The position numbers and the translations under genes were made by a program. Of a stretch of 64,000 bases of DNA, positions 4,150 to 49,793 are shown piece after piece. The stretch is from positions 1 to 64,000 of the forward strand of contig JAEEZY010000009.1 of the NCBI GenBank assembly GCA_016292015.1, in the 5' to 3' direction. The notes beneath the pieces were generated by a model. The model worked only from the letters and a program-made list of their open reading frames with translations, was not told the origin of the DNA and made no database searches. The DNA comes from Bacteroidales bacterium. GTDB lineage: Bacteria; Bacteroidota; Bacteroidia; Bacteroidales; P3. Each line of letters begins with the position of its first letter. Within the stretch, counting starts at the first letter, position 1.

Positions 4150-4259
4150 GAGGTTATGGTGAGGTTATGGTGAGGTTATGGTGAAGTCATAGTGAAGTCA
4201 TAGTAAAGTCATAGTAAAGTCATAGTAAAGTCATGGTAAAGTCATGGTAAAGTCATAGT
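4150..4259. repeat. Tandem array, 10 x 11 bp (GAGGTTATGGT to AAAGTCATAGT)
   Basis: Ten uninterrupted units of exactly 11 bp. The first three are GAGGTTATGGT, then two GAAGTCATAGT, then five AAAGTCAT(A/G)GT. The sequence drifts along the array while the period stays fixed. Confidence 0.97.
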
Positions 4260-4531
4260 ATCAACATTGACGTTGACCTTAACTTTGACCAAGATTAAGT
4301 TTTTTTAACACCCATTTAGCCCAATTTAACATTTCACACGGTCATTACACAAGTAAGAGAATATGTTAATGCGTGAATGTGTGCTAACGGCTTTGCCGCT
4401 TGGCTCGGCCAAGAATGTGTTAATGTGTGAGTAGACGAGACCTTAACCATCTTCCATCTTCCATCTTCCAATACAACCCGTGCCGAGGGGCTGGTATAGT
4501 GCTTGTGAGGTTAAAGCGAGATGGCCTCCAA

Positions 4532-4564
4532 CTCGAAGCTAAATCGAAGCTAGATCGAAGCGAC
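4532..4564. repeat. Tandem array, 3 x 11 bp (ATCGAAGCTAG)
   Basis: CTCGAAGCTAA, ATCGAAGCTAG, ATCGAAGCGAC. Unrelated in sequence to the 4150 array but with the same 11-bp period. Confidence 0.85.
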
Positions 4565-4638
4565 ATGTGTAAAAGCTTAAATACGTGATATTTGCAATTT
4601 ATTAATTTGCAATTTACCGAATCGGCATTTTCCTACAC

Positions 4639-5655
4639 TTACCGCAGCTGGATTTTCATCGCGGGGCGGTCGCCTATCTGGAGTATGTAGTCATTGCAAC
4701 TGCCTGTCGCTATTGCCGATCCGTTGCTTGCGAGGCCGTTGAAGGCTGATGTACTCGGGAAAAGGTCGATGGTGCAGATGACGGTGGCCTTCTGCGCCGC
4801 CACGAGGTTGCCTGTGCAGTCGAACAGTCGTATGAGCTCGCCATCGACACCGGTGATAGTGAGCCGTGTGCCATCGAGCGAGACCGTAGGCTCGTCGTCA
4901 TCGGGTGGCTGAACGGTCTCGTCACCGTTGTCCATGAAGCTGATGATATCCAATGGCGGCAGCTTCTCCAAAGGCTCCGGTTTGGTTTTGGGTGTGCGCC
5001 TGACTTTATTTGTCGAAGGTATGGTGTCCAGCTTTTGCGGCGCGGGCTCTTGGGGTGTTGGTATGGTGTCGATTAGCTTTTCTTCATCGCCCCCTTTGCC
5101 AAAGAAATATTGTCTCCACTCCGGGACCACGGCGACGGCCACCACGGTGGTCACCAGCAAGGCCAGCAGAATCAGTGCCACACGGCGCATTTTCTGTATG
5201 GTGCGGCGCATCCGCTGATAGACGGCATCTCGGTTGAGTCCCATCGCAGCACCTATTTCGTCTCCACGATAGCCGTCGAGATAGAGCTGCATCATTTGTT
5301 GCTCGTCTGGTGTGAGTGTTGAGATGAGGTTGTCGAGAAGTTCTTTACGATGAACGGATTCTTCGTCGGCGGTGGAGTGAAAAAAATCTTCGGTTAGAGG
5401 CTCGGTGTATAGCGTTTTCCGCCTGTCGATTTGGTAGAATACCGACCGTGCCTGCCAACGCACCCATGCACGTTCCTGCCAAGAGGTGGAATTGGGACGT
5501 AGCTTGCCGAGGTTCTCCCACAGTTGAATGGAGACCTCCTGCAGAAGATCCTGGCAGTGGTCGTAGTTTCCATTTGCCTTTTTCCAGCACATGCACCACA
5601 GCATTTTACGGTGACGTTCAAGCAGGGTGGTGTATGTATGGTGTTGGTCGGTCAT
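4639..5655 (-). CDS. ECF-type sigma factor fused to a TM helix and a sorting-domain-like tail
   Basis: 338 residues. Residues ~1-75 fit sigma-70 region 2 ('DHCQDLLQEVSIQLWENL', then 'RAWVRWQARSVFYQIDRRK'). Residues ~108-158 fit region 4 with its helix-turn-helix ('LTPDEQQMMQLYLDGY', 'GDEIGAAMGLNRDAVYQRM'). A strong hydrophobic helix follows ('VALILLALLVTTVVAVAVV', about 163-181), then a Pro/Thr-rich linker and a ~75-residue C-terminal region. That region, with 'RLTITGVDGELIRLFDCTG' and 'DYILQIGDRPAMKIQLR', resembles a degenerate T9SS type A sorting domain. Ordinary ECF factors stop after region 4. I infer a membrane-tethered sigma factor with a periplasmic sensor tail, possibly released by proteolysis. 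It is divergent from a lipoprotein/BspA pair across a conserved 506-bp region, which suggests it controls those genes. The sigma part is firm; the tail assignment is by eye. Confidence 0.82.
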   Translation of the reverse strand: MTDQHHTYTTLLERHRKMLWCMCWKKANGNYDHCQDLLQEVSIQLWENLGKLRPNSTSWQERAWVRWQARSVFYQIDRRKTLYTEPLTEDFFHSTADEESVHRKELLDNLISTLTPDEQQMMQLYLDGYRGDEIGAAMGLNRDAVYQRMRRTIQKMRRVALILLALLVTTVVAVAVVPEWRQYFFGKGGDEEKLIDTIPTPQEPAPQKLDTIPSTNKVRRTPKTKPEPLEKLPPLDIISFMDNGDETVQPPDDDEPTVSLDGTRLTITGVDGELIRLFDCTGNLVAAQKATVICTIDLFPSTSAFNGLASNGSAIATGSCNDYILQIGDRPAMKIQLR

Positions 5656-5750
5656 GTTTTATAAACGAATTCTTGCGAATAATGTTGTTACATAGTGGTC
5701 GGTGATCAGTAGTCAGTGGTTAATGACTAACACAATCATGTATTTAAACA

Positions 5751-5867
5751 ATATTACACATCTTTTTGCGAAAATCTGACAGGAAGGATTGAATTTTTTT
5801 TCAGTTGTCAGATTCGACTCCGTTTGTGTGTAATATGTTTGTAGGATTGGTCAGTATTTTACTGACC
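5751..5867. promoter_or_regulatory. Nested inverted repeats in the shared leader (copy A)
   Basis: ATATTACACA (5751-5760) pairs with TGTGTAATAT (5827-5836). Nested inside, TCTGACA (5775-5781) pairs with TGTCAGA (5806-5812), and both internal gaps are 14 bp, so the whole is symmetric. A TAnnTTTG-like box (TATGTTTG, 5834-5841) overlaps the right arm, and a hairpin GGTCAGTA/TACTGACC follows at 5849-5867. All are retained in copy B (8824-8935 region) with few changes. Likely a control region between the sigma gene and the lipoprotein gene; the bound factor is unknown. Confidence 0.65.
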
Positions 5868-6161
5868 GCAAAAACAAACAGATATGTATTTCATCTGACA
5901 TAGCCCCGCACAGGTTCTGATGGTGCCGCTGTGACGGGGCGGAAGGAAAAAAGTATGACGCAGGGAGAGTAAAGGATTGTGTTATTGTTTGAGTAACTAA
6001 CACATTAACGCATTCAGGCATTCAATCAATCAGACAATCTCATAACCCCTACCCAGAACACACAAGGCACTGTAAATAACACCTACAAAATAAAACGCTG
6101 TATTCGGATTAATGTTGTAGGTCATCGAAAACTACAAATCAAAAAACAAAATACTACAATT
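5868..6161. other. Long 5' leader before lipoprotein copy A
   Basis: No ORF of interest. Contains a strong hairpin (GCCCCGCACAG at 5903-5913 with CTGTGACGGGGC at 5929-5940, one bulged A), a CACATTAACGCATT word block (5991-6030), and a second stem (6081-6088 with 6115-6122) just upstream of the start codon. Confidence 0.6.
6081..6122 (+). promoter_or_regulatory. Leader stem with compensatory change between copies
   Basis: ACCTACAA (6081-6088) can pair with TTGTAGGT (6115-6122). In copy B the arms are ACCTGCAA (9184-9191) and TTGCGGGT (9232-9239): an A-T pair became G-C and a T-A became T-G, so pairing is kept. This supports a structured mRNA leader. The loops differ in length (26 and 40 nt). 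Confidence 0.5.
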
Positions 6162-6668
6162 ATGAAAAAAATAAATTGGACCATTATGGTCATAATTATC
6201 TCAGCCGTTGCCGTAACCTTTGTCGCCTGCAACAAGGAAAGTGAAATTCAGAACAATGAGACGGTGCAGTCAAGTGTTAAAATGGCAAATGGCGCTGCTG
6301 ATTTTTGTCCGCACTTCAAATATAGATTTGGATATTCGCCGGATTGTACGGCAAAATCAGGCTCTTTTTGCGGATTTGATATTGATGCCGTTCTTAACGG
6401 CGACGAGGTCTGCTATCTGATGATGAAAGACGGTGATCCAAACAGGTTTATATTGCCTACACCTGTATTGTTGTCGAATTCGGCGGGTGTTCTAATAGAC
6501 AGTGCCCGCACGGGTTCTATGACTTTCAACTCGGATTTTGAAATACTTTCTCCAAGTATGGCAAAGGATCTCGGTATAGATTTAATACCGGCTGGCAGAT
6601 ATCCGGCCTCTATGACCACATATCAAGGAGACAGCGTCGTAAGCATCCAACTAGACACTGTTTTGTAA
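6162..6668 (+). CDS. Small lipoprotein, copy A of a tandem pair
   Basis: 168 residues. A type II signal peptide ends in 'AVAVTFVACNKES', with Cys23 as the likely lipidated residue. The mature part has conserved Cys residues ('DFCPHFKYRF', 'DCTAKSG', 'FCGFDID') and ends 'DLGIDLIPAGRYPASM'. I do not recognise a named family. Its paralogue at 9278-9784 shares the signal peptide, the C-G-x-(D/N)-I-D segment and the C-terminal third, while residues 30-60 differ. A terminator-like hairpin and the BspA gene follow, so the two are probably co-transcribed with attenuation between them. A surface location is inferred from the partnership with a T9SS protein. Confidence 0.75.
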   Translation: MKKINWTIMVIIISAVAVTFVACNKESEIQNNETVQSSVKMANGAADFCPHFKYRFGYSPDCTAKSGSFCGFDIDAVLNGDEVCYLMMKDGDPNRFILPTPVLLSNSAGVLIDSARTGSMTFNSDFEILSPSMAKDLGIDLIPAGRYPASMTTYQGDSVVSIQLDTVL

Positions 6669-6677
6669 GTAATGCAT

Positions 6678-6710
6678 AAAGGGTAAGGCAATAATGTCTT
6701 ACCCTTTTTT
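6678..6710 (+). terminator. Intra-operon terminator/attenuator (copy A)
   Basis: 10-bp stem (6678-6687 with 6698-6707) followed by a T run. It lies 25 bp before the BspA-like gene and is conserved in copy B at 9793-9825, so it may set the ratio of lipoprotein to LRR protein. Confidence 0.75.
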
Positions 6711-6734
6711 AGAAACACCTAAATATACCGTAAT

Positions 6735-8525
6735 ATGAACAAAATCATTCTTTATTTTAACGCGTTAAGCCTGTTTTGCCTACCCTTCTATGCGTCGGCG
6801 CAATATTTTGAATCGGACGGCATAGCATACAACATCCTGTCAGCGGAGGATCGCACCGTGGAAGTGACAGCGCTACATAGTAGTACATTTTATCGCGGAA
6901 ATATCAACATTCCCCCATCGGTGGTTTACAATGGCGAAACATACAATGTGGTAGCCTTGGGTGAAGAGGCGTTCGAAGGGTCCACTCTATCAAGCGTTAC
7001 GATTCCTTCGTCTGTCATAGAGATTAAGCGCGGCTGCTTCTTCAATGTTATGGGTTCTCTATCGGCAATCAACATACCCGCCTCGGTTACATCGATTGGG
7101 GAATATGCATTTGTGGTGCAGAACCTCACTGCCATCAACGTGGATGAAAACAATCCCAGTTACAGAACAATAGACGGAATGCTATTCAGCAAAGATACCG
7201 CCACATTGATGGCATGTCCTGCTGCCAAGAGTGGCGCGATAACGCTGCCGCAGAACACAAAGTATATTGCAAACTATGCGTTCACTTTTTGTTTTTACAT
7301 TACTGGTGTAACGCTGCATGAAGGCATTTCCAGCATTGGCTGCCGGGCATTCTGGAGCAACAGGCGGTTGAACAATATAGTCATTCCATCATCGGTGAGT
7401 CATATCGGTCCAAACCCTTTCGCCTACTGTCTGGCACTTGACAATCTTACGCTCTCCGATGGTAATATGCACTATTATTTAGACGGTATGATGATTTATT
7501 CTGCGGATGGCGACTCTCTGCTTTCGGCACACAAAAGTGCTGACTCTGTATTTTTGCCAAATACGTTGCGCTATGTCAACGGTTTTGGACTAAATCAAAA
7601 CGTGAGATATGTTAATGTACCCGATGGGGTTACAACCATAGGCGACGAGACGTTCAATGGAAGCACTCTGGTCAGCATCGATTTGCCGAACCATTTGGAT
7701 CTTATGGGCGAGGGCGCTTTCGCCTATTGCAGTTCGCTAACACGTGTTGCAATGCCTTCAAGTCTCGACACGATGAGAAAAGAATGCTTTTTTTCATGCG
7801 AGAACTTGACTTCCATTGATATTCCAAACGGTTTGCGTGCCATTCCTCCGGATGCATTCAACAGCTGTACCTCTCTTTCTCATATTACTTGGGGCGATGC
7901 GGTTGAAACTATAGGCGAAGCGGCTTTCGGCGATTGCGCATTCACTGACCTCATCTTCCCTTCGACTTTGCGGTCCATAGGATTGGCGGCATTCCCCTCC
8001 TATAACGGCATGGCTGATATGGGTAGGGTGGTCTTCACCGCTCCCATCGACACTATTGAACCCGAAGCATTCACCCAGCGGCAAATAGGCTTGCTGCAAT
8101 TTGTGAACACAACACCGCCTGTCACCGTAACGATGCCAGAGTATGGTGAAGACTTGGGCTGCCTTTATTACGCCACCGTTGACACAATCGTCATTCCCTG
8201 TGGGACGTTGGATGCATATTTGTCCGACAGCTATTGGGGTCAGTTTGCCGATTTCTACTATGAGGACTGCAGCGGAATTGAGGAAGCGGTCAGTAGTCGG
8301 CAGTCGGCGGTCAGCGTCTATCCTAATCCGACACAGGGTATGGTTTATATCAACAGCGAGGCGGGCGAGATAAAGTCTGCGGAAGTGTACAATGTCCGCG
8401 GAGAAAAGGTGTCGGTGCAACTTACGACTGAAGGCATTGACATGTCGAGGTTATCGGCTGGCATGTACTACCTGATTCTTACAACCGAGAGCGGAGAGTG
8501 CCGTCACAAGGTGGTCAAGCTGTGA
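6735..8525 (+). CDS. BspA-like leucine-rich-repeat surface protein with T9SS type A domain, copy A
   Basis: 596 residues. Signal peptide residues 1-22 (ends 'FYASAQYF'). From ~60 to ~470 there are LRR_5/BspA-type repeats of ~23 residues: 'LSSVTIPSSVIEIKRGCF', 'LSAINIPASVTSIGEYAF' and 'LTSIDIPNGLRAIPPDAF' show the I-P-x-x-(V/L) core and the A-F ends. The last ~75 residues are a type A sorting domain: 'VSVYPNPTQGMVYI', 'AEVYNVRGEKV', 'LSAGMYYLIL', 'HKVVKL'. Such proteins are exported by T9SS and act as adhesins to host matrix or other bacteria (known for Tannerella BspA). The linker 'SSRQSAVS' just before the domain is encoded by the CAGTCGGCAGTC repeat word also seen in intergenic DNA. Confidence 0.9.
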   Translation: MNKIILYFNALSLFCLPFYASAQYFESDGIAYNILSAEDRTVEVTALHSSTFYRGNINIPPSVVYNGETYNVVALGEEAFEGSTLSSVTIPSSVIEIKRGCFFNVMGSLSAINIPASVTSIGEYAFVVQNLTAINVDENNPSYRTIDGMLFSKDTATLMACPAAKSGAITLPQNTKYIANYAFTFCFYITGVTLHEGISSIGCRAFWSNRRLNNIVIPSSVSHIGPNPFAYCLALDNLTLSDGNMHYYLDGMMIYSADGDSLLSAHKSADSVFLPNTLRYVNGFGLNQNVRYVNVPDGVTTIGDETFNGSTLVSIDLPNHLDLMGEGAFAYCSSLTRVAMPSSLDTMRKECFFSCENLTSIDIPNGLRAIPPDAFNSCTSLSHITWGDAVETIGEAAFGDCAFTDLIFPSTLRSIGLAAFPSYNGMADMGRVVFTAPIDTIEPEAFTQRQIGLLQFVNTTPPVTVTMPEYGEDLGCLYYATVDTIVIPCGTLDAYLSDSYWGQFADFYYEDCSGIEEAVSSRQSAVSVYPNPTQGMVYINSEAGEIKSAEVYNVRGEKVSVQLTTEGIDMSRLSAGMYYLILTTESGECRHKVVKL

Positions 8526-8688
8526 GAAAGTTTCAAACGAATTTGAATGGGGCAAGAAAAAGGATGATAAAACGACCACCGAAAGGTTGCCGAAGGATCG
8601 AAAGATTAGTGCTTGAAAATCAATACTTTGCAAACTCCTATAGAGTTACTTTGTAAAATGCTGTCTTATAAATGGTTAGCTATCGTGA
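8526..8688. other. Spacer between duplicated units
   Basis: 163 bp not shared between copies. No gene or terminator is apparent. It ends exactly where homology to the sigma gene 5' end resumes (8689). Confidence 0.6.
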
Positions 8689-8720
8689 AGGGTGGTGTAT
8701 GTATGGTGTTGGTCGGTCAT
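8689..8720 (-). pseudogene. Remnant of the sigma factor 5' end
   Basis: The minus strand encodes 'MTDQHHTYTT', identical to the first ten residues of the sigma factor at 5655-5626, after which homology stops. It marks the left breakpoint of the duplication and cannot make a protein of any length. Confidence 0.85.
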
Positions 8721-9277
8721 GTGTTTTATAAACGGATTCTTGCGAATAATGTTGTTATATAGTGGTCGGTGATCAGTTGTCAGTGGTTAGTGTCTAGCAC
8801 AATCATGTATTTAAATACATGATTACACATCTTTTTGCGGAAATCTGACAGGAGGGATTGAATTTTTTTCAGTTGTCAGATTCATCTCCTTTTGTGTGTA
8901 ATATGTTTGTAGGATTGGCCAGTATTTTACTGACCGCAAGAAACAAACAATTATGTATTTTATCGGACGAAGCCCCGCACAGGTATATCGACAGTGCCGC
9001 TGTGTCGTGGCAAAAAAAAGAAAGGGTATATCGCAGGGAGAGTAAAGGATTGTGTTATTTTTTGATTGCGTTATTGTTTGAGCAACTAACACATTAACAC
9101 ATTAATGCACTCGGACATTCAATCAATCAGACAATCTCATAAAATATTCCCTTGCTCGCGATACCTCAGGCACTGCAAGCAGCACCTGCAATATAGAGCA
9201 ATAATATAGAACGTGGTTTTCAATTTTGTTGTTGCGGGTCAAAAGCAAAAATCATAAATCATAAAAAAAGTACTACA
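8721..9277. promoter_or_regulatory. Duplicated long leader (copy B)
   Basis: Parallel to 5656-6161. It keeps the outer (ATTACACA/TGTGTAAT) and inner (TCTGACA/TGTCAGA) inverted repeats, the GG(C)CAGTA hairpin at 8917-8935, the GCCCCGCACAG hairpin arm, the CACATTAACACATTAA word block and the terminal stem (9184-9239). The left part matches the promoter side of the sigma gene although no sigma gene remains here. Conservation in the absence of the sigma gene argues that the elements serve the downstream lipoprotein gene. Confidence 0.65.
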
Positions 9278-9784
9278 ATGAAAAAAACAATTTGGACCAT
9301 TATGGTCATAATTATCTCAGCAGTTGTCGTAACCTTCGTCGCCTGCAACAAGGAAAGTGAATTGACAAATAATGAACCCATTCGAAATAAGGCAAAAAGT
9401 GTTTATGTCCAAGATTGCTCCCCTCACTTCTTATGGAAGAACATTAACTCACAACCTTGCTCAAACAAACCTGGGAGTATTTTTTGCGGGTACAACATCG
9501 ATGATGTTCTTACTGGCGATGAGGCTTGTTGGCTAATGATGAAGGATGGGGATCCTTTCAGATTTTTCTTGCCTAAGTCGCTGGTACTATCGAGTAATGT
9601 TGGGGTGTTAATAGATAGTGCCAGGACAGGAGCAATGACGTTCCATTCGGATTTTGAAATTGAATCTGCCAGTATGGCCAAGGATCTCGGTATAGATTTA
9701 ATACCGGCAGGCAGGTACCCTGCGGCAATGACTATGTATAACGGAGACAGTGCTGTATGCATATATTTGGACACCGTTTTGTAA
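9278..9784 (+). CDS. Small lipoprotein, copy B of a tandem pair
   Basis: 168 residues, the same length as copy A. Signal peptide 'AVVVTFVACNKESE' with the lipobox Cys. It shares 'IFCGYNIDDVLTGDEACWLM' and 'SMAKDLGIDLIPAGRYPA' with copy A, while the first 40 mature residues differ ('DCSPHFLWKNINS'). The pattern of conserved core and variable front suggests a common fold with changed surface. Unknown function. Followed by the conserved hairpin and the second BspA-like gene. Confidence 0.75.
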   Translation: MKKTIWTIMVIIISAVVVTFVACNKESELTNNEPIRNKAKSVYVQDCSPHFLWKNINSQPCSNKPGSIFCGYNIDDVLTGDEACWLMMKDGDPFRFFLPKSLVLSSNVGVLIDSARTGAMTFHSDFEIESASMAKDLGIDLIPAGRYPAAMTMYNGDSAVCIYLDTVL

Positions 9785-9792
9785 AAGATACC

Positions 9793-9825
9793 AAGGGGTA
9801 AGTCTTCAATGTCTTACCCTTTTTA
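9793..9825 (+). terminator. Intra-operon terminator/attenuator (copy B)
   Basis: Stem AAGGGGTAAG (9793-9802) with CTTACCCTTT (9813-9822) and a T run; the counterpart of 6678-6710. Confidence 0.7.
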
Positions 9826-9849
9826 TTTATGAACTTAAAACAAAGCATT

Positions 9850-11658
9850 ATGAACAAAATCATTCTTTTTCTCGGCACATTGGGACTGTTTGGACTTACT
9901 ACCGTCGCATCGGCCCAGAGCAGTGAGCAATATTTTGTGAGCGGCGGCTTGGCCTACAAGATTCTCTCTGCCGACGATCACACCGTAGAGGTGGCTGGTG
10001 GCGAGTCTTGTGAGACTTATCGGGGCAACCTGAACATACCCGCAACTGTGACGTACAACGGTGAAACCTACGATGTGGTTGCATTGGGTGAGATGGCTTT
10101 TTATGGTGCTTCCCTGTCGGGATTAACCATTCCATCGTCGGTTGTCCAGATAAAGGAGGCCTGTTTTCGGGGTGCCAGCGGTCTTACAACAATCAGTGTC
10201 TCTGCATCGGTGACTAATATTGAGATGTGGGCTCTCGCTGCCAAAGGTCTAAACTCCATCAATGTGGACGAGAACAATCCAAACTATACTTCAATAGACG
10301 GAATACTTTTCAGTAAAGACACTTCGACCTTGGTGGAATGCCCGCGTGGTAAAAGCGGGACGATAACATTGCCGCAAAACACGAGACACATTGCCCCTTG
10401 CGCCTTTTGCGACTGCAAGTCGATAACGGGCGTGTCATTGCCCGATGGCTTGTCCAGTATTGATTTCTGGGCTTTTACAGGTTCCGATCGTTTGAATAAT
10501 ATAGTCATACCTTCGTCAGTCTCGTATCTTGGCGACAATCTTTTTGCTGGTTGTTCAGCTCTAACCAACCTTACCATTGCAGAAGGGAACACCCACTACT
10601 ATATTGACGAAAAGGCAATTTATTCCGTTGGTGGGGACACCCTTGTGTCGTGTCATAAAAGTGCCGACACGGTGATTCTGCCGAGTACATTGCGTGTTGT
10701 GAGTGGCTTTATGTTCAACTCGAATGTCAAATATATCTATGTCCCTGATGAAGTAACTACGATCGCCAGCAACGCATTCTCTTATAGCTCACTGGAATGC
10801 ATCGTCTTGCCAAGCTATTTGGAGCGGATGGATGATTATGCTTTCGATTATTGCACGTCGCTGGCCTCTGTCTCAATGCCGTTGACCCTCGACACGATGG
10901 GCAGAGCGTGTTTCGAACTTTGCACCAACTTGAGCTCCATATCGATACCGAATGGCTTGCGCACAGTTCCAAGGGAGGCATTTATGTATTGTACCGCCCT
11001 TTCGCACATCACCTGGGGTGACGATGTCGAGACCATCGACTCGTACGCTTTTGGAAATTGCGCAATGTCCAGTCTTCAACTTCCGCCATCGTTAAAGGTC
11101 GTTCGGTATGAAGCTTTCTGGAAAGGACGTAAGTTGAACAGGGTTGAATTCTCCGCCCCCATCGACACCATCGAATATGGGGCTTTCGATGAGCACCGTA
11201 TCGGAATGCTGATATTGAAAAACACGTTGCCTCCGGTCTCCGTGGATGATGGCTACTATGGGTACGGATGCCTCTATGGAGCGACCGTCGACAGCATTGT
11301 CATCCCCTGCGGCACGTTGAACGCTTACCTGACGGATGACTATTGGGGACAGTTTGCCGACAAGTATGGTGAGGACTGCGGCACCGATGGGATAGAGGAG
11401 GCGGCCGGCAGCCAGCAGTCGGCAGTCAGCGTCTACCCGAACCCGACGGCAGGCCTGGTATATGTCAAAACAGACGGAATGCCAATCACCGACATCACCA
11501 TCCACAACACAATGGGCGTGCGTGTTCGCCCAGAGCAAACGACAACTGGTAGCAGTCAGATGACGCTGGACCTCTCGACGTTGCCGGCAGGAGTGTATTA
11601 CATGACCGTGAAGAGCGGAGAGGCGACAACAAGACATAAAGTCATAAAAGTTAAATGA
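9850..11658 (+). CDS. BspA-like leucine-rich-repeat surface protein with T9SS type A domain, copy B
   Basis: 602 residues from ATG 9850, chosen because it aligns with the copy A start ('MNKIILF'); an in-frame ATG at 9829 would add seven residues. Signal peptide to ~22 ('TTVASAQSS'). LRR_5 repeats from ~70 to ~480 ('LSGLTIPSSVVQIKEACF', 'LSSISIPNGLRTVPREAF'). The type A sorting domain is at the C-terminus ('VSVYPNPTAGLVYVKT', 'LPAGVYYMTVKSGEATTRHK'). The C-terminal domain differs from copy A more than the repeats do. A Q-S-A-V-S linker encoded by the CAGTCGGCAGTC word again precedes it. Probable secreted adhesin, co-transcribed with the lipoprotein at 9278. Confidence 0.9.
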   Translation: MNKIILFLGTLGLFGLTTVASAQSSEQYFVSGGLAYKILSADDHTVEVAGGESCETYRGNLNIPATVTYNGETYDVVALGEMAFYGASLSGLTIPSSVVQIKEACFRGASGLTTISVSASVTNIEMWALAAKGLNSINVDENNPNYTSIDGILFSKDTSTLVECPRGKSGTITLPQNTRHIAPCAFCDCKSITGVSLPDGLSSIDFWAFTGSDRLNNIVIPSSVSYLGDNLFAGCSALTNLTIAEGNTHYYIDEKAIYSVGGDTLVSCHKSADTVILPSTLRVVSGFMFNSNVKYIYVPDEVTTIASNAFSYSSLECIVLPSYLERMDDYAFDYCTSLASVSMPLTLDTMGRACFELCTNLSSISIPNGLRTVPREAFMYCTALSHITWGDDVETIDSYAFGNCAMSSLQLPPSLKVVRYEAFWKGRKLNRVEFSAPIDTIEYGAFDEHRIGMLILKNTLPPVSVDDGYYGYGCLYGATVDSIVIPCGTLNAYLTDDYWGQFADKYGEDCGTDGIEEAAGSQQSAVSVYPNPTAGLVYVKTDGMPITDITIHNTMGVRVRPEQTTTGSSQMTLDLSTLPAGVYYMTVKSGEATTRHKVIKVK

Positions 11659-16599: not shown

Positions 16600-16654
16600 A
16601 CATAGCCCAAACATAGAGTTACCATAGAGCAACCATAGAGCAACTATAGACAGG
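16600..16654. repeat. Tandem array, 5 x 11 bp (CCATAGAGCAA)
   Basis: ACATAGCCCAA, ACATAGAGTTA, CCATAGAGCAA, CCATAGAGCAA, CTATAGACAGG. It lies between the rpmA terminator and the 3' end of the DAHP synthase gene. Same 11-bp period as at 4150 with unrelated sequence. Confidence 0.92.
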
Positions 16655-26100: not shown

Positions 26101-26163
26101 AAAAGAAAAAGACAATTATTGCGAAAATGTACATTGCGTTGTATGACTTTTGTAGGTACTTGG

Positions 26164-26251
26164 TAGGAGTTAGGTGGGAGTTAGATAGGAGTTAGATAGG
26201 AGTTAGATGGGAGTTAAGTGATAGGTAGATGATAGGCAAATGATAGGCAAT
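26164..26251. repeat. Tandem array, 8 x 11 bp (TAGGAGTTAGA to TGATAGGCAAT)
   Basis: Eight exact 11-bp steps: five (T)(A/G)GGAGTTA units grading into three TGATAGG(T/C)(A)nn units. It lies between the divergent promoters of metK and the beta-barrel gene. Confidence 0.95.
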
Positions 26252-41685: not shown

Positions 41686-41695
41686 TGGATAAATC

Positions 41696-42449: not shown

Positions 42450-42766
42450 GTTTTCTTCTTGGGTTTGGGATCAGGCAGTTCTGCGCAGGTGGCTTTCACC
42501 AGCGCTGCCAGGTAGTCGTGGTCGTCGACATCTTCGATGTAGAAGTAAGGTTTTGCGCCGGGGTAGGGAGGGCGCATATCCTCTTGTCGCAGGAGTTGGC
42601 GGCCGGCTGCGGTGGGCTTGACATAGAAACCGTTGTCGCTTATAAGTCCGAAAATCTTACCGCCACAATAGATGCCGTAATCACCGAACATCTTGCGTGT
42701 TTCTATGACGCTGGCGCCAGAACACTGGTCGGCTATGTATTGTACAAAATCGGGATTGCTGGCCAT
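42446..42766 (-). CDS. TfoX/Sxy N-terminal domain protein
   Basis: 106 residues: 'ETRKMFGDYGIYCGGKIFGL' and 'FYVKPTAAGRQLL' match the TfoX_N domain. The C-terminal helix-hairpin domain of full-length Sxy is absent, as in many Bacteroidota stand-alone copies, so a competence role should not be assumed. It ends in a Lys run ('DPKPKKKT') and overlaps the methyltransferase gene downstream by 4 bp. Confidence 0.88.
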   Translation of the reverse strand: MASNPDFVQYIADQCSGASVIETRKMFGDYGIYCGGKIFGLISDNGFYVKPTAAGRQLLRQEDMRPPYPGAKPYFYIEDVDDHDYLAALVKATCAELPDPKPKKKT

Positions 42767-42777
42767 TGGCTGGGTTT

Positions 42778-42835
42778 TAAAGGTTGAAAAGGTTCGCTTC
42801 GCTTGAAAGGTTTAAAAGGTTTGAGGTGTTTGTTG
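42778..42835. repeat. AAAGGTTTGAAAGG word repeat
   Basis: AAAGGTTGAAAAGGTTCGC...GAAAGGTTTAAAAGGTTTGAGG fills the gap upstream of the tfoX-like gene, containing a TTCGCTTCGCTT core. Confidence 0.65.
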
Positions 42836-42845
42836 TGGTCAACGG

Positions 42846-43397: not shown

Positions 43398-43427
43398 GGT
43401 AGATGATAAAAGGTACAAAGTCCTTGC

Positions 43428-44831
43428 CTATTTTAATTCCACTTCTTCGCGGAAATCGGCTATATGGACATCTTTCCATCCAGCCTCTTCGAGGGTGTCG
43501 GCGAAATGCTGTTGGGTTTCAGCTTCGCCGTGAACGAGGAAGAGCCTGCGGAGTTTCGACTGGCTCTGGCATCCTATGTAACGCATCATCTCGTTGTAGT
43601 CGCCGTGGCCAGAGAAGGACTCGATGCGGCGCAGGTCGCAGCGTACGGTGTAGGGGCGACCGAATATGGAGACGGTCTTATCGCCTCGCATAATCTTGGC
43701 ACCTAGCGTCGTGGGTTCGCAGTAGCCCACGCATAGTATTGTGGTCTTGGGGTTCTCGATGTTGTTGGCTATATGGTGTTTCACACGGCCAGCCTCCATC
43801 ATTCCCGAGGCCGAGATGATGATGCAAGTCTTGTTGCGTACGTTCAGTGCTTTCGAGGCCTCGACACTTTGTATGTACTGCAGGCGTTCGAAGCCGAAGG
43901 GGTCTTTGTCTTTCTCCATGAACTCCTTAATGTCGTCGTTGAAGCACTCCTCGTGCAGCTTCATGATGTTGGTAGCCGAGATGCTGAGTGGGCTGTCAAC
44001 AAAGACATCGATGTCGGGCAGCAGCCGCTGATGGACGAGACGGTCGAGAGCGTAGATTATCTCCTGGGCGCGGCCGATGGCAAAGGAGGGAATGATGAGT
44101 TTGCCTTTCTTCTTGGTGCAGGTGTCGAGCACAGCCATAAGCAACTCCTGCTCAGCAGTGTCGAGAGTGGTGTGGAGACGGTCGCCGTAGGTGGATTCCA
44201 TGATGAGGTAGTCCACTTGAGGGAATGGCTCAGGGTCTTTCAGAATCTTCTTGTCGTAGCGACCAATGTCGCCCGTGAAACCGAGTTTTATGATGCGTCG
44301 CCCTTCTTTCACTTCCAGATAGACACAGGCAGAGCCGAGGATGTGGCCGGCGTCGAAGAACTCGACTGTCACCTCGCCCTCGATGTTGAATTTTTTATGG
44401 TAGGGGACGCTGATGAAGCACTGCATACAGGCCTGAGCATCGGCCTCGGTGTAGATGGGCTCGACAGGCTCCAGCCCTTGCGCCTTGCGTTTCTTGTTGA
44501 AGGTGTGGGTATCGGACTCCTGTATGCGCCCGGCGTCGGCCAGCATGATGGCACAGAGGTCGCGAGTGGCTGGGGTGCAGAGCACCGTGCCATTGAAGCC
44601 CAGCTTGTGGATGTAGGGAATAAGGCCCGAGTGGTCGATATGGGCATGAGAGAGGATGAGGTAGTCGATTTCAGCAGGGTTGAAGCCCAAGTCGCGGTTC
44701 ATTGCGTCGGTTTCCAGCCCCTTGCCTTGGTACATGCCACAGTCGAGGAGTATTTTCAATCCTTTTTTGGTCGTTATAAGATGTTTGCTGCCAGTGACCT
44801 CTTTGGCAGCGCCCATAAATTGAAGCTTCAT
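43428..44831 (-). CDS. Beta-CASP metallo-beta-lactamase family RNase
   Basis: 467 residues. Metallo-beta-lactamase core: 'LLDCGMYQGKG', 'DYLILSHAHIDHSGLIPYI' (H-x-H-x-D-H), 'EFFDAGHILGSACVYLEV' and 'LGFTGDIGRYDKKILKD'. The beta-CASP cap has 'LIIPSFAIGRAQEIIYALDR' and 'CIIISASGMMEAGRVKHHIA'. The RMMBL end is 'IESFSGHGDYNEMM' and 'LRRLFLVHGE'. It probably cleaves or trims RNA, like CPSF-73-type and RNase J relatives. No KH domain and no signal peptide, so cytoplasmic. It stands after a word-repeat leader (44840-44912) on the minus strand. Confidence 0.92.
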   Translation of the reverse strand: MKLQFMGAAKEVTGSKHLITTKKGLKILLDCGMYQGKGLETDAMNRDLGFNPAEIDYLILSHAHIDHSGLIPYIHKLGFNGTVLCTPATRDLCAIMLADAGRIQESDTHTFNKKRKAQGLEPVEPIYTEADAQACMQCFISVPYHKKFNIEGEVTVEFFDAGHILGSACVYLEVKEGRRIIKLGFTGDIGRYDKKILKDPEPFPQVDYLIMESTYGDRLHTTLDTAEQELLMAVLDTCTKKKGKLIIPSFAIGRAQEIIYALDRLVHQRLLPDIDVFVDSPLSISATNIMKLHEECFNDDIKEFMEKDKDPFGFERLQYIQSVEASKALNVRNKTCIIISASGMMEAGRVKHHIANNIENPKTTILCVGYCEPTTLGAKIMRGDKTVSIFGRPYTVRCDLRRIESFSGHGDYNEMMRYIGCQSQSKLRRLFLVHGEAETQQHFADTLEEAGWKDVHIADFREEVELK

Positions 44832-44839
44832 AATGAATG

Positions 44840-44912
44840 TATTTTGATGTTGATGTGTTGTTCGATGATATGTTGATATGTTGATGTGTTTGATGACGGC
44901 TGACTGCTAATT
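44840..44912. repeat. GTTGATGTGTTG / GATATGTTGATATG words and GACGGCTGACTG
   Basis: Fills the whole gap between the RNase gene start and the transglutaminase-like gene stop. The stop codon of the latter lies against the TGACTGCTAATTACTGA segment. Confidence 0.8.
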
Positions 44913-46128
44913 ACTGAATCGGTTGCACCAGCTGTCGTAGTTTCTCTATGTCGAGTTCGCGGTATTGGTTGTTGGCCGGGTCTTGGAAGTATTTCTTGTT
45001 GGAGTTGTATGCGTCCACGTCGTAGTTGGAGGCTTTGGAGAAGAGAGCGTCAGCCACCTGGTGCTTCACTGTCTCGATGTCTGTTTTGCCGTCGAGGTAG
45101 TCCTGCCGCTGTTTCTCAGTAAGGTATTTTGATATTTTGTTCCATTGCTTTTCGGCGATAAAGCCAGTGCTGTCGATTGAGCGTTCCAGTTCGGGGAGGT
45201 TTACCCATCCGGTGAGAGTGGTCTCCAGCAAGGCTATGTTCTTGCGTTTTTTGTCGGTGTAGTAGCCAAGATAGGCATGACAAGGTTCGACGAAGATGAC
45301 AGGCTTCAAGCCGATCTTGCGCATAATCGAGGCGAAGAACACGCAAGCATCAACGCAGTTGGCCTGGCGGTAACGATAGACTTCGTCGAAGAAACGAATG
45401 TGCTGAGTGTTGCTGCGTTTCGACGGATTTGCGGTACAGGTGATGGACGAGTAGGTGATGCCGCGGTTAAGGGCGTAGTACCATATCGCCTTCACCTGCT
45501 GCTGCGGAGTGTTGGCTTTGGTTTGGTAGCCTGTGAAGCGCCGCACTATGCCTTGGTCAAGCATCTCCGAAAGCAGCGAGTCAATCTCAGGGTGGTCTTC
45601 GTTCACGTAGGCGCAGAACATCCATTTGAAGTCGGTATGGTTGCCCGAAGTGTCGCGCACCGAGAGCAGGCACTCGTTGACCGAGCGGTAGGAGAGGTGC
45701 AGGTTGCGCACTCCCACGCGTTCGTCGTTGAGGTAGCAGCTGAAAGTCAAGTCAATCATCCCCGGCTGACGCAGGTTGCGCAGCACATTGTACTTCCACT
45801 TGGGATTGATGGCGAAGGAGACCTCCGTACCGCGTTTGCCGAGAGTTTCCAGAATCTCGGTTTCGTAGTTGATGGCCGACGAGTCGATGACTATGCGCAT
45901 CACCGCGTTATCGACATGAGGTGTGAGCCGAGCCTGGAAGAAGTCGAACTGGTCGTTGCCGGTGTAGTTGTTGTAGCCGAGTATGAGCGAGGGGTACAAG
46001 ATGCCGTCAAGCAATGGCTGGTAGCTCACTTGGAAATTGGCCTTACCTGGTTTCGAGGCATTGTTGCATCCGCAAAGCAGCGCCACTGTCAGCAAGAGTA
46101 TGATATGAACCTTAACTTTCAAAGTCAA
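44911..46128 (-). CDS. Lipoprotein with transglutaminase-like domain
   Basis: 405 residues. Lipobox 'LTVALLCGCNNASKPG' (Cys21). The N-terminal half is beta-rich. 'QQQVKAIWYYALNRGITYSS' and 'RYRQANCVDACVFFASIMRK' (nucleophile Cys in C-V-D-x-C), then 'PVIFVEPCHAYLGYY' (His) and 'IALLETTLTG', resemble the Cys-His-Asp order of transglutaminase-like cysteine proteases. It may cross-link or cleave proteins at the cell envelope; substrate unknown. It follows the NSS transporter by 24 bp on the same strand, so it is probably co-transcribed with it. Confidence 0.75.
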   Translation of the reverse strand: MTLKVKVHIILLLTVALLCGCNNASKPGKANFQVSYQPLLDGILYPSLILGYNNYTGNDQFDFFQARLTPHVDNAVMRIVIDSSAINYETEILETLGKRGTEVSFAINPKWKYNVLRNLRQPGMIDLTFSCYLNDERVGVRNLHLSYRSVNECLLSVRDTSGNHTDFKWMFCAYVNEDHPEIDSLLSEMLDQGIVRRFTGYQTKANTPQQQVKAIWYYALNRGITYSSITCTANPSKRSNTQHIRFFDEVYRYRQANCVDACVFFASIMRKIGLKPVIFVEPCHAYLGYYTDKKRKNIALLETTLTGWVNLPELERSIDSTGFIAEKQWNKISKYLTEKQRQDYLDGKTDIETVKHQVADALFSKASNYDVDAYNSNKKYFQDPANNQYRELDIEKLRQLVQPIQ

Positions 46129-46152
46129 TCAAACATTTGGACATCCATGCAA

Positions 46153-47532
46153 TCACAAACTGTTGACAATTCCCGTCACCAGCACGATAATCAGTGCAAG
46201 GGGAGCTACAAAGCGTACAAGGAACAAGAATCCCTTGAACCAAGGGATGGCTATAGTGCCGTGGTTGGAGAGTTCGTCGCGGATGGCCTCCTTGTCAACC
46301 ACCCAGCCGAGGAATATCACAGCGCAGAGAGAGCAAAGAGGAGGCAGGTAGATGGAGTTGAGCTGGTCAACGAAGGCGAAGAGGGACTTGCCACCGATGG
46401 TGAAATTGCCGCAAACGCCGTTGCTCAGCGAAAGGATTGCCGAGAGAGCCAGCATCAGCAGGCAGATGACGATGGTGTTGCGAGTGCGTTGACTCTTGCC
46501 CTTCTTGTACTCCTCGCCCCAAGCCACCTGGGCCTCGAGCAGCGAGATGGCGGAGGTGAGAGCTGCGATGACCAGCAAGAGGAAGAAGATGGACTCGAAA
46601 ATGGTGCCGATGGGGAGGCCGTCGGCGGGGTTCATGGAGTTGAACACTACCGGGAGAGTCATGAACACCAATCCAGGACCACCCGCGGGGTCTTGTCCGC
46701 TGGCGAACACCGCGGGGAAGATGGCTATGCCGGCGAGGATGGCGATCAGCGTGTCGCACACGGTTATCCATATTGAGGTCTTGAGAAGATTGTCGTCTTT
46801 CGGCAGGTAGGAGCCATAGACAATCATCACGCCCATGCCCACCGACAGCGAGAACAGCGCCTGACCCAAGGCGGCAAGCACACCTTGTCCTGTGAGCTGA
46901 GTGAAGTCGGGTTTGAAGAGGTAGGCGAAGCCAGCGGAGGCACCTGGTAGAGTGGCGGAGCGCACACAGAGTACCACCAGAAGCACTACCAACACGGGCA
47001 TCAGTATCTTCGACACCCGCTCGATGCCTTTCTGAACACCGCCCAAGATGACCGCACCCGTAATCAGTAAGAACACAGCGATAAAGACAATTGGACGGAG
47101 AGCCGAGGTGGAGAAGAAGTCGAAGTGGTCGGATATCGCGACACTGTCAAGTCCGATATGGGCGCCGACGAGCGATTCAGCGAAGTAGTTGGTTGTCCAG
47201 CCAGAAATGACAAGATAGAGGGCGAGGATGAGGAAGCTTGTGACAAGACCCAGAAGGCCGGCGTAGCGCCACAAGCGCTGCTTCGGGGATTGGACGAGTG
47301 ACTCGTAGGCGAATATGGGAGTGCGCCCCGTGCGACGACCCATGACAAACTCGGTTATCATCAGTGCCATGCCGATGAAGAAGACAAAGCAAAGGTAAAC
47401 CAGCAAGAAAGCACCGCCGCCGTATTGGCCGCAGATGTATGGGAAACGCCAGATATTGCCTAATCCGACAGCCGAGCCAACTGCTGCTGCGATGGCACCG
47501 AACGAAGAACTAAAACCTTTAGATTCAGACAT
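46153..47532 (-). CDS. Sodium-dependent neurotransmitter/amino-acid symporter (NSS/SNF family)
   Basis: 459 residues, about 11-12 TM helices. N-terminal 'GSAVGLGNIWRFPYICGQYG' is the TM1 Na-binding signature of LeuT-like carriers; 'GGGAFLLVYLCFVFFIGMAL', 'FSLSVGMGVMIVYGSYLPKD' and 'VAQVAWGEEY'-type segments follow. It imports an amino acid or related amine with Na+; the substrate is not evident. A 100-bp block of GTTGATATGTTG words lies directly upstream of its start codon. Confidence 0.93.
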   Translation of the reverse strand: MSESKGFSSSFGAIAAAVGSAVGLGNIWRFPYICGQYGGGAFLLVYLCFVFFIGMALMITEFVMGRRTGRTPIFAYESLVQSPKQRLWRYAGLLGLVTSFLILALYLVISGWTTNYFAESLVGAHIGLDSVAISDHFDFFSTSALRPIVFIAVFLLITGAVILGGVQKGIERVSKILMPVLVVLLVVLCVRSATLPGASAGFAYLFKPDFTQLTGQGVLAALGQALFSLSVGMGVMIVYGSYLPKDDNLLKTSIWITVCDTLIAILAGIAIFPAVFASGQDPAGGPGLVFMTLPVVFNSMNPADGLPIGTIFESIFFLLLVIAALTSAISLLEAQVAWGEEYKKGKSQRTRNTIVICLLMLALSAILSLSNGVCGNFTIGGKSLFAFVDQLNSIYLPPLCSLCAVIFLGWVVDKEAIRDELSNHGTIAIPWFKGFLFLVRFVAPLALIIVLVTGIVNSL

Positions 47533-47549
47533 TGTTTATTCGTTTATTT

Positions 47550-47699
47550 GTTGATTGTTGATGTGTTGGATGTGGATATGTTGGGTGTTGATATGTTGGG
47601 TGTTGATATGTTGATATGTTGGATGTTGATATGCTAATATGTTGGATGTTGATGCTTTTACCGACTGCTTGAAACTTGAAGCTAAAAGCTAGAAACTCA
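47550..47699. repeat. GTTGATATGTTGG word array and TTGAAACTTGAAGCTAAAAGC block
   Basis: 47550-47654 has about ten GTTG(A/G)TATGTTGG units with variable spacing. 47663-47699 has the ACTTGAAGCTAAAAGCT words; the TGA stop of ruvC lies at its edge. On the minus strand the array gives an A-rich leader for the NSS transporter gene. Confidence 0.85.
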
Positions 47700-48272
47700 T
47701 TTTCCCAATTTTTCCACATACTCCGTCCAGCTGGCCCTCTGCGACTTCGCCTTGTGTTTCTTGGGTTTCAGTTCCTGATGCAGAGCCGCCATAGGGTGAG
47801 TGAGCTGCAGGTAGTGGCAGTATGCCGCCGCCAGAGAGTCGGTGGCGTCGAGGTATTTCGGCTCGTCGTCGTATTTCAGCTGCATCTGTAGCATGGCCGA
47901 CACCTGTTCCTTGGAGGCGGCGCCGTTGCCTGTGATATATTGTTTAATCAGTCGTGGTTCGTATTCGGTGAACGACAGGTCGCGACTCATAGCCGCCGCT
48001 ATCGCCACCCCCTGTGCACGCCCAAGTTTGAGCATCGACTGCACGTTCTTGCCGTAGAACGGTGCTTCGATAGCCAGGTGGTCGGGATGGTGTTGGTCGA
48101 TGATTTCCACCACGCTGTCGAAGATCTTGCGGATGCGCAGGTTGTAGTCCTCGATACGTTTGAGGTATAGCACGTCCATAGTCACCAACTGCGCGCGAGT
48201 CTCCTCCACACGCAGGATGCTCCATCCCATTATCAAGGTTCCCGGGTCGATGCCCAATATGATGCGCTCCAT
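47697..48272 (-). CDS. ruvC: Crossover junction endodeoxyribonuclease RuvC
   Basis: 191 residues from ATG 48272 ('MERIILGIDPGTLIMGWSIL'); the promoter at 48294-48323 would exclude the longer frame. Catalytic acidic residues are in 'GIDPGT', 'HLAIEAPFYGKNVQSMLKLG' and 'YLDATDSLAAAYCHY'; 'RLIKQYITGNGAASKEQVSA' is the DNA-binding region. It resolves Holliday junctions with RuvAB. Divergent from the cytidylate-kinase-like gene. The C-terminal ~20 residues are basic. Confidence 0.96.
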   Translation of the reverse strand: MERIILGIDPGTLIMGWSILRVEETRAQLVTMDVLYLKRIEDYNLRIRKIFDSVVEIIDQHHPDHLAIEAPFYGKNVQSMLKLGRAQGVAIAAAMSRDLSFTEYEPRLIKQYITGNGAASKEQVSAMLQMQLKYDDEPKYLDATDSLAAAYCHYLQLTHPMAALHQELKPKKHKAKSQRASWTEYVEKLGK

Positions 48273-48293
48273 GCGATTCTTTCTTAGAGTGTG

Positions 48294-48323
48294 CAAAGTT
48301 ACGAACAATGCCGTTAACTGCAA
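48294..48323 (-). promoter_or_regulatory. ruvC promoter
   Basis: Minus strand TTG (48323-48321), 19 bp, TAACTTTG (48301-48294). Transcription would begin about 15 nt before the ATG. Confidence 0.75.
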
Positions 48324-48341
48324 AATATTTTTTCAGAAAGG

Positions 48342-48370
48342 TTGGATGTGGGATATATTCCGTATCTTTG
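48342..48370 (+). promoter_or_regulatory. Promoter of the cytidylate-kinase-like gene
   Basis: TTG (48342-48344), 18 bp, TATCTTTG (48363-48370), back to back with the ruvC promoter. Confidence 0.75.
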
Positions 48371-48438
48371 CACTTGTTTATTCAAGTCGTTGCATAATTT
48401 TTTTCAAGCACATCTTTCATTTCAAGTACATCTTTACC

Positions 48439-49065
48439 ATGAACAATATCGTCATTACAATCAACAGACAATGTGGCAGCGGTGGAGGCGAAATGGCCAG
48501 GCTGCTCGGTAAAAAACTAGGTATGAAGGTCTATAACCGCGAGTTGCTCGAAGACATAGCCAAGCAGTTCGACATGACCATAGAGCACATGGAGGAGGTC
48601 AAGGCGCAGAGGGTAAACTGGTGGAGCGATTTCTGCCGCTTCTATCAGCAGTTCGGCGCCGCAGGGCATAAGGTCAGCGCTAAACCCGACGTGACGCCGC
48701 TGAGCCTTTACTATGCCGAGGCAAGAGCCTTGCGCGAGCTGGCCGAGAAAGAAAGCTGCATCATAGTGGGGCGAGCCGGATTCCATATCTTCCGAGACAA
48801 TTCCGATGCGATTCACCTATTCATTAGGGCCGACCGCCAGTCGCGTATCGCACGAGTCGCCGCCCAACTCGACCTGGATCTCGACGAAGCAGAGAAGACG
48901 ATGGATCGCATAGACAAGGGACGTGACAATTTCGTCAAGAACGTCACCGACTCGTCGCGCTACGACTTGCGCAACTATGACTTCGTGTTCAACATCACAG
49001 GGATGGACCTTGACAAGGTGGCAGAGTTCCTCGCGAAGAACATACGTCTCAAGATGGAAAGATAG
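48439..49065 (+). CDS. Cytidylate kinase-like family protein
   Basis: 208 residues from ATG 48439 ('MNNIVITINRQCGSGGGEMA'); upstream in-frame codons precede the promoter and are rejected. The N-terminus is a P-loop variant (R-Q-x-G-S-G-G-x-x-(I/M)-A) typical of the cytidylate-kinase-like family. 'SCIIVGRAGFHIFRDNSDAI' and 'LFIRADRQSRIARVA' follow. Nucleotide or small-molecule kinase of uncertain substrate; a true Cmk usually exists elsewhere in the genome. Confidence 0.88.
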   Translation: MNNIVITINRQCGSGGGEMARLLGKKLGMKVYNRELLEDIAKQFDMTIEHMEEVKAQRVNWWSDFCRFYQQFGAAGHKVSAKPDVTPLSLYYAEARALRELAEKESCIIVGRAGFHIFRDNSDAIHLFIRADRQSRIARVAAQLDLDLDEAEKTMDRIDKGRDNFVKNVTDSSRYDLRNYDFVFNITGMDLDKVAEFLAKNIRLKMER

Positions 49066-49614
49066 TATTCCCGAAGCACGCTGTCATTGACAGTGTAGCT
49101 GCCAGAAAGCTATACAATAAAACTTTGCATTTCATTCCTCGACTCTTTGCGCCAGCCTCACGGAGGCTCCTATGCAGCGAGGGTTGCCGGTTTGTCCATG
49201 CATGGTTGAGGATGTTGTAATAGGCCTCGCCCACCAGCTCGCGGCAGAGCGCTTCGTCGCATTTCACGCGCACGGCGAAGAAACGCTCGATCAGGTCGCG
49301 GTTGCTCATGATAAGCTCTACGAAGTCATCGTGGTTGGCATCGGGGGAGAGTATGGATGGGGATTCTTTGATTGTTGACAGGATTTATGTTGATATGTTG
49401 AAGTTGGTGGTTGTTTTTTTGTGAGTGGCTATATGGTTGGTTGCAAAGATAGTAGAAAACCGTCTTCGATATATAATAATAGACGCAAAGGGGGGGGGGA
49501 ATTGACAACGGGGGTGAAATTTTAACATTTAGGGAGAGGAGAGGGCTGATTTCGGGTGCTTTTATGGGGTGGGGCAAGTGGGTGTGTATCAAAATGATAT
49601 AGTTTATTGGTTTT

Positions 49615-49647
49615 GGTCCCCTTTTGGTCCCCTTTTGGTGTCGTTTT
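49615..49647. repeat. Tandem array, 3 x 11 bp (GGTCCCCTTTT)
   Basis: GGTCCCCTTTT twice, then GGTGTCGTTTT. Confidence 0.9.
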
Positions 49648-49716
49648 GGGTTGGACCAAGGTAGGGTTATACTAACGCCAACGATTGGCCGTTATAACAA
49701 GAACCGAGGCGGCTGC

Positions 49717-49793
49717 GGAGCAAGAACGGAGCAGGAGCAAGGAACGGACGAAGGACGGACGAAGGACGGCCGAGGAGGAGCCGGAGGACGGGA
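49717..49793. repeat. Degenerate array, 7 x 11 bp (GAAGGACGGAC)
   Basis: Successive 11-mers: GGAGCAAGAAC, GGAGCAGGAGC, AAGGAACGGAC, GAAGGACGGAC, GAAGGACGGCC, GAGGAGGAGCC, GGAGGACGGGA. Neighbouring units resemble each other most. Confidence 0.8.

Follow-up and report, generated by a model that had tools for sequence, protein, structure and literature searches.

Long simple sequence repeats with units of 5-11 bp, mostly heptamers, are a described class of bacterial tandem repeats (Mrazek 2007, via PMC4679880), and their preference for 7 bp has tentatively been linked to the length of DNA that contacts the polymerase (PMC4679880). Repeats of 6-11 bp are very abundant in the spacers of a few genomes, and in the table of Mrazek and Huang (2014, PMC4060949) the 11-mer pattern scores 0.00 in Bacteroidetes, compared with 0.59 in Cyanobacteria. 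The arrays considered here consist of head-to-tail units in this size range and are longer than expected by chance. They share with the class an intergenic location, many unrelated units, a preferred length and slippage as a proposed origin. The remark of the sequence-only reading that it knew of no described element with this property was thus too strong. Within the class, however, 7 bp is the usual favourite and heptamers are commonest in most genomes, whereas here 11 equals 7 (67 versus 69 arrays) and lies far above 9, 10 and 12, in one genus.

Three other systems bear resemblance. The BrickBuilt MITE of Porphyromonas gingivalis (PMC4596501) likewise belongs to Bacteroidales, is intergenic and holds a minisatellite between conserved flanks in some 10-40 copies, but its unit is 23 bp and it carries IS5-family-like terminal inverted repeats, whereas here the unit is 11 bp and no flanking inverted repeats were found. 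The TAACTGA and GGGAATC heptamer arrays (PMC4679880, PMC4692102) are also abundant, intergenic and fixed in unit length, yet use one unit per genome group, in contrast to the many unrelated units seen here. Finally, the 10-11-bp A-tract periodicity of prokaryotic genomes (PMC3372288) has a similar period, but is a statistical phasing of A/T runs, whereas ours are true tandem repeats in which A-tracts are not enriched. In the literature searched, mostly at surface level, we found no earlier report of an 11-bp preference. The pattern is more suggestive of a copying habit specific to the lineage than of a common signal.

Six arrays in a 64-kb window

The window, a 64-kb stretch of Bacteroidales DNA, had been noted for six arrays of unrelated sequence with an exact 11-bp step. 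The first (4149-4260, about 10 units, by lag scan and TRF; forward strand, as for all features given) drifts from TGAGGTTATGG to TAAAGTCATAG. The others lie at 4533-4561 (TCGAAGCTAAA, by TRF), 16612-16650 (CATAGAGCAAC) and 26162-26250 (TAGGAGTTAGA, both by ungapped scan), and at 49611-49649 (TTTTGGTCCCC) and 49739-49773 (AAGGACGGACG, the core of a degenerate array at 49717-49793), both by TRF, ungapped scan and lag identity. A 7-bp array of CCATCTT occupies 4447-4470 (TRF). Identity at lag 11 was 0.94 for 4150-4259, 0.82 for 4532-4564, 0.73 for 16600-16654, 0.82 for 26164-26251, 0.86 for 49615-49647 and a weak 0.61 for 49717-49793. This was the top self-match among the tested lags in all six stretches, in agreement with the initial observation: lags 9, 10, 12 and 13 gave 0.07-0.37, except for the 49615 array with 0.45-0.57 at lags 10, 12 and 13, and lag 22 fell below lag 11 throughout. 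TRF also returned period 11, with limits of 4149-4260 (two overlapping rows), 4533-4561, 16608-16650, 26164-26216 plus 26219-26250, 49611-49639 and 49739-49773. The period is thus common to all six, but the step at 49739-49773 is not strictly exact, because TRF finds 4% indels there.

An ungapped scan of the window (score of at least 12) found six segments at lag 11 and none at 9, 10, 12 or 13; three order-1 Markov shuffles gave no segment at any period from 4 to 33. The window also holds eight segments of 7 bp and three of 8 bp, so that 11 is not the sole preferred size but one of two. Coding regions were assigned by a simple longest-ORF rule, and our intergenic tables list four arrays for the window, because the two near 49.6 kb fall inside a TTG-start frame. 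Array-bearing spacers are convergent, divergent and co-directional, which rules out siting at terminators only or promoters only. A search of the window with Rfam at gathering thresholds returned tRNA-Gly only.

An excess of period 11 within one genus

Across 1,565 kb from 12 species of the genus, intergenic arrays with a base period of 11 number 67, compared with eight at period 9, two at 10, four at 12 and none at 13; periods 7 (69) and 8 (38) are also prominent. The sample covers 427 kb of this genome's 2,540 kb together with portions of 11 congeners, with this genome and G014 contributing 827 of the 1,565 kb and 40 of the 67 arrays; arrays lying mostly inside longest-ORF frames were left out, among them four period-11 arrays from the sample of this genome. 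The genomic excess over neighbouring periods, on which the sequence-only reading had staked its proposal, is therefore present in the sampled 427 kb and in the 11 congener samples. Period-11 arrays occur in nine of the 12 species, and three gave none. No such array turned up in 409 kb sampled from eight further genera of the family, nor in 266 kb from 13 further families of the order, and AT-rich sister genera have eight arrays of period 21 and two of period 22 among 17 of period 5-24. Because the histogram is bimodal, with peaks at 7-8 and 11 and few arrays at 9-10, a single distribution of slippage sizes is insufficient to describe it.

Short exact repeats at lag 11 are also in excess in 519 spacers without an array at score 12 (21 versus 8.5 under the Markov expectation); in the same spacers, lag 12 is barely in excess (13 versus 9.2), and lags 7, 8, 10, 21 and 22 are not. 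Of these 21 two-copy cases, some are recognisably related to array families and may therefore be decayed arrays rather than births.

The 67 arrays fall into 33-36 unit families, or 22 with a looser cut, and no common motif is evident among the units of the 33-36 families. Average linkage leaves 24 families of one array each. A looser single-linkage cut leaves four groups, but random 11-mers collapse likewise, to 12-15, so that deep common descent of the units would still be compatible with the grouping. The suggestion of a retained period rather than a retained sequence is accordingly supported across species.

Turnover and dispersal of arrays

Comparison of shared spacers suggests that arrays turn over fast: between species an array may be absent, swapped for one with a period of 11 or 22, or altered in length by whole units. 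At 4533-4561, the array of RUG12008 (L099) is longer by exactly two units (22 bp) within near-identical flanks, whereas the CCATCTT array is one unit (exactly 7 bp) longer in our genome than in the RUG12008 orthologue, also within near-identical flanks; these whole-unit differences were seen between two species, at two neighbouring arrays. In G014 the orthologous spacer lacks the array at 16612-16650, and in place of that at 26162-26250, G014 holds a different 11-bp array and G100 none. Arrays of 7-8 bp show similar turnover. Similarity between neighbouring units is only weakly higher than between distant ones (p 0.15), so that the gradient which simple slippage predicts is not clear. The transition/transversion ratio inside arrays (0.83, 248/299) compares with 0.89 (2604/2921) in window-G014 alignments, which are mostly coding.

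The units are not all private to their arrays: there are many families, but the 4150 unit recurs at five further places in this genome and at ten in G014, the sole relative with it among 40 other genomes searched. Most of the first array and the second array, together with a conserved core at 4295-4360, lie within a dispersed mosaic stretch at 4188-4588, pieces of which occupy 10 places in this genome (itself included) and 34 in G014. At most of its copies the core lies 3' of a GTAAAGTCATA-type array. This family, whose unit is kept at many places in two species, alone combines a minisatellite with a conserved part dispersed in spacers; the other 11-bp units mostly occur as one array each. A 267-bp copy, set in different surroundings, shows 97% identity between species, and G100 lacks a 475-bp stretch that includes array and core, with 48 bp in its place. 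No base pairs were predicted for the core RNA in 13 copies, and no flanking inverted repeats were found in three copies, with two internal pairs in L014. At one missing site (L014 versus G100) no target-site duplication was seen by eye, the boundaries being blurred. The stretch at 4188-4590 matched neither the plasmid nor the phage collection, which speaks against such an origin, and REP/BIME-like spread driven by a RAYT was rejected on finding no match to Y1 transposase (PF01797) in this genome; the domain is present in six of seven congeners drawn.

Conceivably, dispersal is all there is: a few mobile minisatellite elements of period 11 would have spread and diverged, the period being inherited and not re-made. 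The mosaic, the 267-bp copy and the site missing from G100 are as expected, but we consider this account unlikely, because dispersal of one element does not explain a period shared across nine species by 33-36 unit families, 24 of which consist of one array under average linkage, and because the 7-8-bp arrays turn over alike.

Origin of the 11-bp step

Of the three meanings first offered for the arrays (a phased binding surface, bent DNA and a copying process adding 11-bp steps), the last fits best. We lean, with about even confidence, towards bacterial minisatellites that arise by lineage-specific 11-bp duplication or slippage, drift near-neutrally and have partly spread in dispersed elements.

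Alternatively, a nucleoid or regulatory protein might need sites one helical turn apart, selection holding the step. The step of 11 bp is about one turn, the periods of 21 and 22 in the AT-rich sister genera are about two, and the GTAAAGTCATA family retains its unit; moreover, bacterial 11-bp genomic periodicity has been tied to negative supercoiling (PMC3372288). Such selected phasing nevertheless seems quite improbable. The unit families have no evident common motif, the array places examined are not conserved among species, period 10 is almost missing, and 7-8 matches 11 in frequency. Invariant unit positions do not cluster (p about 0.2, 19 arrays of at least five units), and no constrained patch of neighbouring positions was found in 33 arrays (p 0.2). 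Bent DNA fares no better: tracts of the A4, T4 or AATT type occur in the units of 12% of 74 arrays (periods 11, 22 and 33) versus 25% of random intergenic 11-mers, and by this content the units do not appear to carry the phased A-tracts of intrinsically curved DNA. Purine skew of the units equals random.

One turn of the A-form RNA helix is 11 bp. The arrays might therefore be arms of long hairpins whose transcripts present a regular surface, and inverted partners within 120 bp (score of at least 15) do accompany 11 of the 74 arrays versus three of 74 with swapped flanks; G012 has three hairpins with arms of 36-38 bp made of an 11-bp unit. However, 7-bp arrays pair equally often (11/74 versus 1/74 for the 7 class at the same score), the contrast weakens to 15 versus 8 at score 12, and the 11 arrays paired at score 15 come from G012, G009, G023 and G002, neither this genome nor G014 contributing any. 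Hairpin arms are thus rejected as a general rule and appear as a trait of some congeners; an RNA function has very little probability. Chance or assembly artefact, which only the degenerate sixth stretch would recommend, is extremely improbable, since the shuffles and the period table rule out chance and the excess recurs in separately assembled genomes.

Returning to duplication and slippage, we envision a mutational process in this genus that duplicates and deletes intergenic DNA in 11-bp steps, and has 7-8 bp as its other preferred size. It would work on any sequence present at the site, the array then drifting near-neutrally, and some finished arrays would be carried within dispersed intergenic elements such as the array-plus-core family at 4149-4588. 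Why the step should be 11 bp is the least certain part of this scheme; in our view the likeliest cause is that a nascent strand, in replication or repair, realigns by one helical turn. That the genus possesses a DNA synthesis or repair activity which re-primes or realigns by a fixed 11 nt, one helical turn, in any spacer sequence is a tentative and rather doubtful proposition. If true, step size would be a heritable trait that differs among genera (11 here, 21-22 in the AT-rich sister genera). For the question of what determines the unit-length preference of bacterial tandem repeats, this genus offers a comparative system: a second sharp and largely sequence-independent preference, for 11 and unseen in the sampled sister genera, may help to trace the enzyme or the geometry of DNA by which the step is set.

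Distribution of the 11-bp period

In all six stretches that the sequence-only reading had assigned an exact 11-bp step (window positions 4150-4259, 4532-4564, 16600-16654, 26164-26251, 49615-49647 and 49717-49793), lag 11 gives the top self-match among lags 9-13 and 22, with identities from 0.94 to 0.61. The step thus stands, but it is not exact in the sixth and weakest stretch (49717-49793), which contains indels. An ungapped scan at a score of at least 12 returned six lag-11 segments in the window, none at lags 9, 10, 12 or 13, eight at period 7 and three at period 8, and three shuffles of the window gave zero segments at every period from 4 to 33. The 49.6-kb arrays lie within a TTG-start reading frame; because an ATG at 49894 opens a frame, they likely sit before the gene rather than within it. 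This downstream gene (49894-50601) is of the DUF6266 type, and an ORF resembling it by eye lies downstream of an array plus core in another surveyed stretch (L115, 1559-2347). Window positions 47534-47653 and 51165-51242 hold TGTTGATA-based arrays mixing 7- and 8-bp steps (periods 15, 16 and 23).

We surveyed 1,564,636 bases from 12 species (183,349 of them in no reading frame of 100 codons or more), comprising 427 kb of this genome (2.54 Mb, 35 contigs), 400 kb of the congener G014 and 5.7 to 100 kb from each of ten further congeners. With multiples of 7, 8 and 11 counted under their base period whenever lag identity reached 0.6, the excess at 11 bp over neighbouring periods, whose absence from a genome-wide histogram had been named earlier as the refuting outcome, is present in the sampled histogram: 67 arrays versus 8, 2, 4 and 0 at periods 9, 10, 12 and 13, next to 69 at period 7, 38 at 8 and 8 at 18. 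Period-11 arrays occur in 9 of the 12 species and are absent from the samples of G016, G021 and G022; this genome and G014 contribute 40 of the 67 and account for 827 kb of the sequence. Four stretches of another genome, G100 (82 kb), hold two. Eight sister genera within the family yielded none in 409 kb; for two of these, g27 and g21, with a G+C similar to that of the genus, the genus rate predicts 3.1 and 2.7 arrays (each weak evidence). Thirteen further families belonging to the order also yielded none in 266 kb, against 13.2 expected. In AT-rich sister genera (g19, g20, g26, g28; stretches L152-L168), periods 21 (eight arrays) and 22 (two) make up 10 of 17 intergenic arrays of period 5-24 and hence dominate.

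The neighbouring genes that were sampled encode transporters, LRR surface proteins, enzymes and ribosomal protein L21. A scan for one LRR protein of the window turned up two relatives that carry names: Bacteroidales MAG RGIG8179, which its record title places in water buffalo rumen, and uncultured Bacteroidetes RUG12008; the latter genome and G014, of the same genus as the window, give identical places. A BspA-type LRR gene cluster (window 6735-8525 and 9829-11658) is also found in stretches L098 and L099, and its between-species copy matches run in crossed order, as if rearranged.

Turnover and relatedness of units

Six arrays of this genome with period 11 or 22 were compared at orthologous spacers. 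For the 4533 array, RUG12008 carries the same unit with exactly two units more between near-identical flanks; for the 4149 array it retains 29 bp with a similar unit, and the preceding DNA differs. G014 lacks the 16612 array (33 bp in place of 131), holds a different 11-bp array in the spacer of the 26162 array, where G100 has none, and has a different period-22 array as counterpart of that at 4824 in L007. The array and core at 18589 in L014, within 475 bp, are absent from G100 (48 bp instead). Differences between the species were likewise seen in several spacers that hold 7- or 8-bp arrays.

Are the units independent? Consensus units were clustered over all rotations and both strands. At a cut of 2.5 they form 36 families by average linkage (24 of them single-array) and 33 by single linkage, versus 59-63 for 67 random 11-mers, so that the real units resemble one another more than random units do; at a cut of 3.5 the families fall to 22 and 4, and random 11-mers drop likewise, to 39 and 12-15. 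Many arrays appear to be mutually unrelated and some families dispersed, which supports the earlier suggestion that the period is kept rather than the sequence. Short repeats were counted as exact runs of 8-11 in 519 spacers without an array at score 12: lag 11 gave 21 against 8.5 expected, and lags 10, 12, 7 and 22 gave 9, 13, 10 and 9 against 9.4, 9.2, 10.9 and 9.5. This excess supports a duplication bias, short of proof, since some of the 21 cases resemble kin of array families.

A dispersed array-plus-core element

The first array is one member of a family with a common layout: a GTAAAGTCATA-type array and, about 25-115 bp after it, a conserved core (up to 68 bp). A core profile search of the sampled sequences gave 21 distinct rows, some being two halves of one interrupted core, and one row lacks an array. 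Among 25 genomes searched, fragments of 4262-4620 recur at 10 places in this genome (self counted), 34 in G014 and a single place in each of two more; one copy common to this genome and G014 is 97% identical over 267 bp in different surroundings. No flanking inverted repeats were found in three copies (one has two internal pairs), no RNA structure was predicted in 13 aligned cores, and plasmid and phage collections gave no match. In L002 and L005, at the ends of contigs C35 and C16, an array plus core lies about 450 bp before the contig end; both contigs break at the identical base, which makes it probable that a long multi-copy sequence lies beyond the break. Of the minisatellite elements found for Bacteroidales, BrickBuilt (PMC4596501) is the nearest.

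Origin of the 11-bp step

How might the step arise? Fixed-face binding as its reason is counted against, because period 11 is common yet 10 is almost absent, and because period 7-8 carries equal weight. Nor does the proposed phased binding surface gain from the units, whose invariant positions show no clustering (p about 0.2). Bent DNA is disfavoured, A-tracts being rarer in array units than in random units. Inverted partners (score 15) accompany 11 of 74 arrays versus 3 of 74 in a swapped control, all 11 from four other species. The congener G012 has three near-perfect hairpins (L066 10004-10088; L143 431-511 and 17367-17447) whose arms of 36-38 bp are built of one 11-bp unit; the three are scattered within 100 kb. 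The purine skew of the units is the same as in random ones, and Ts/Tv inside arrays is 0.83 versus 0.89 in window-G014 alignments, the latter mostly coding. None of the pairing, A-tract, skew, Ts/Tv or position tests revealed a constraint on the unit. Adjacent units are weakly more alike than others (p 0.15), and this likeness does not show the gradient predicted by simple slippage.

Bacterial arrays with units of 5-11 bp form a class already described, with heptamers most frequent, and a polymerase link has been suggested for the 7-nt preference (PMC4679880). A 2014 survey scores the 11-mer tandem pattern at 0.00 in Bacteroidetes and 0.59 in Cyanobacteria; it also singles out a few archaea whose genomes abound in 6-11-bp repeats (PMC4060949). 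In the part of the literature that was searched, no report of an 11-bp preference turned up. We infer a tie between the step and one helical turn, because 11-bp periodicity in bacteria has been linked to negative supercoiling (PMC3372288) and because period 21-22 in sister genera approximates two turns. The best account is the copying process that the sequence-only reading had listed among its options: a bias of the genus would favour duplication in 11-bp steps, the array sequence would then drift, and some arrays would spread within dispersed elements.
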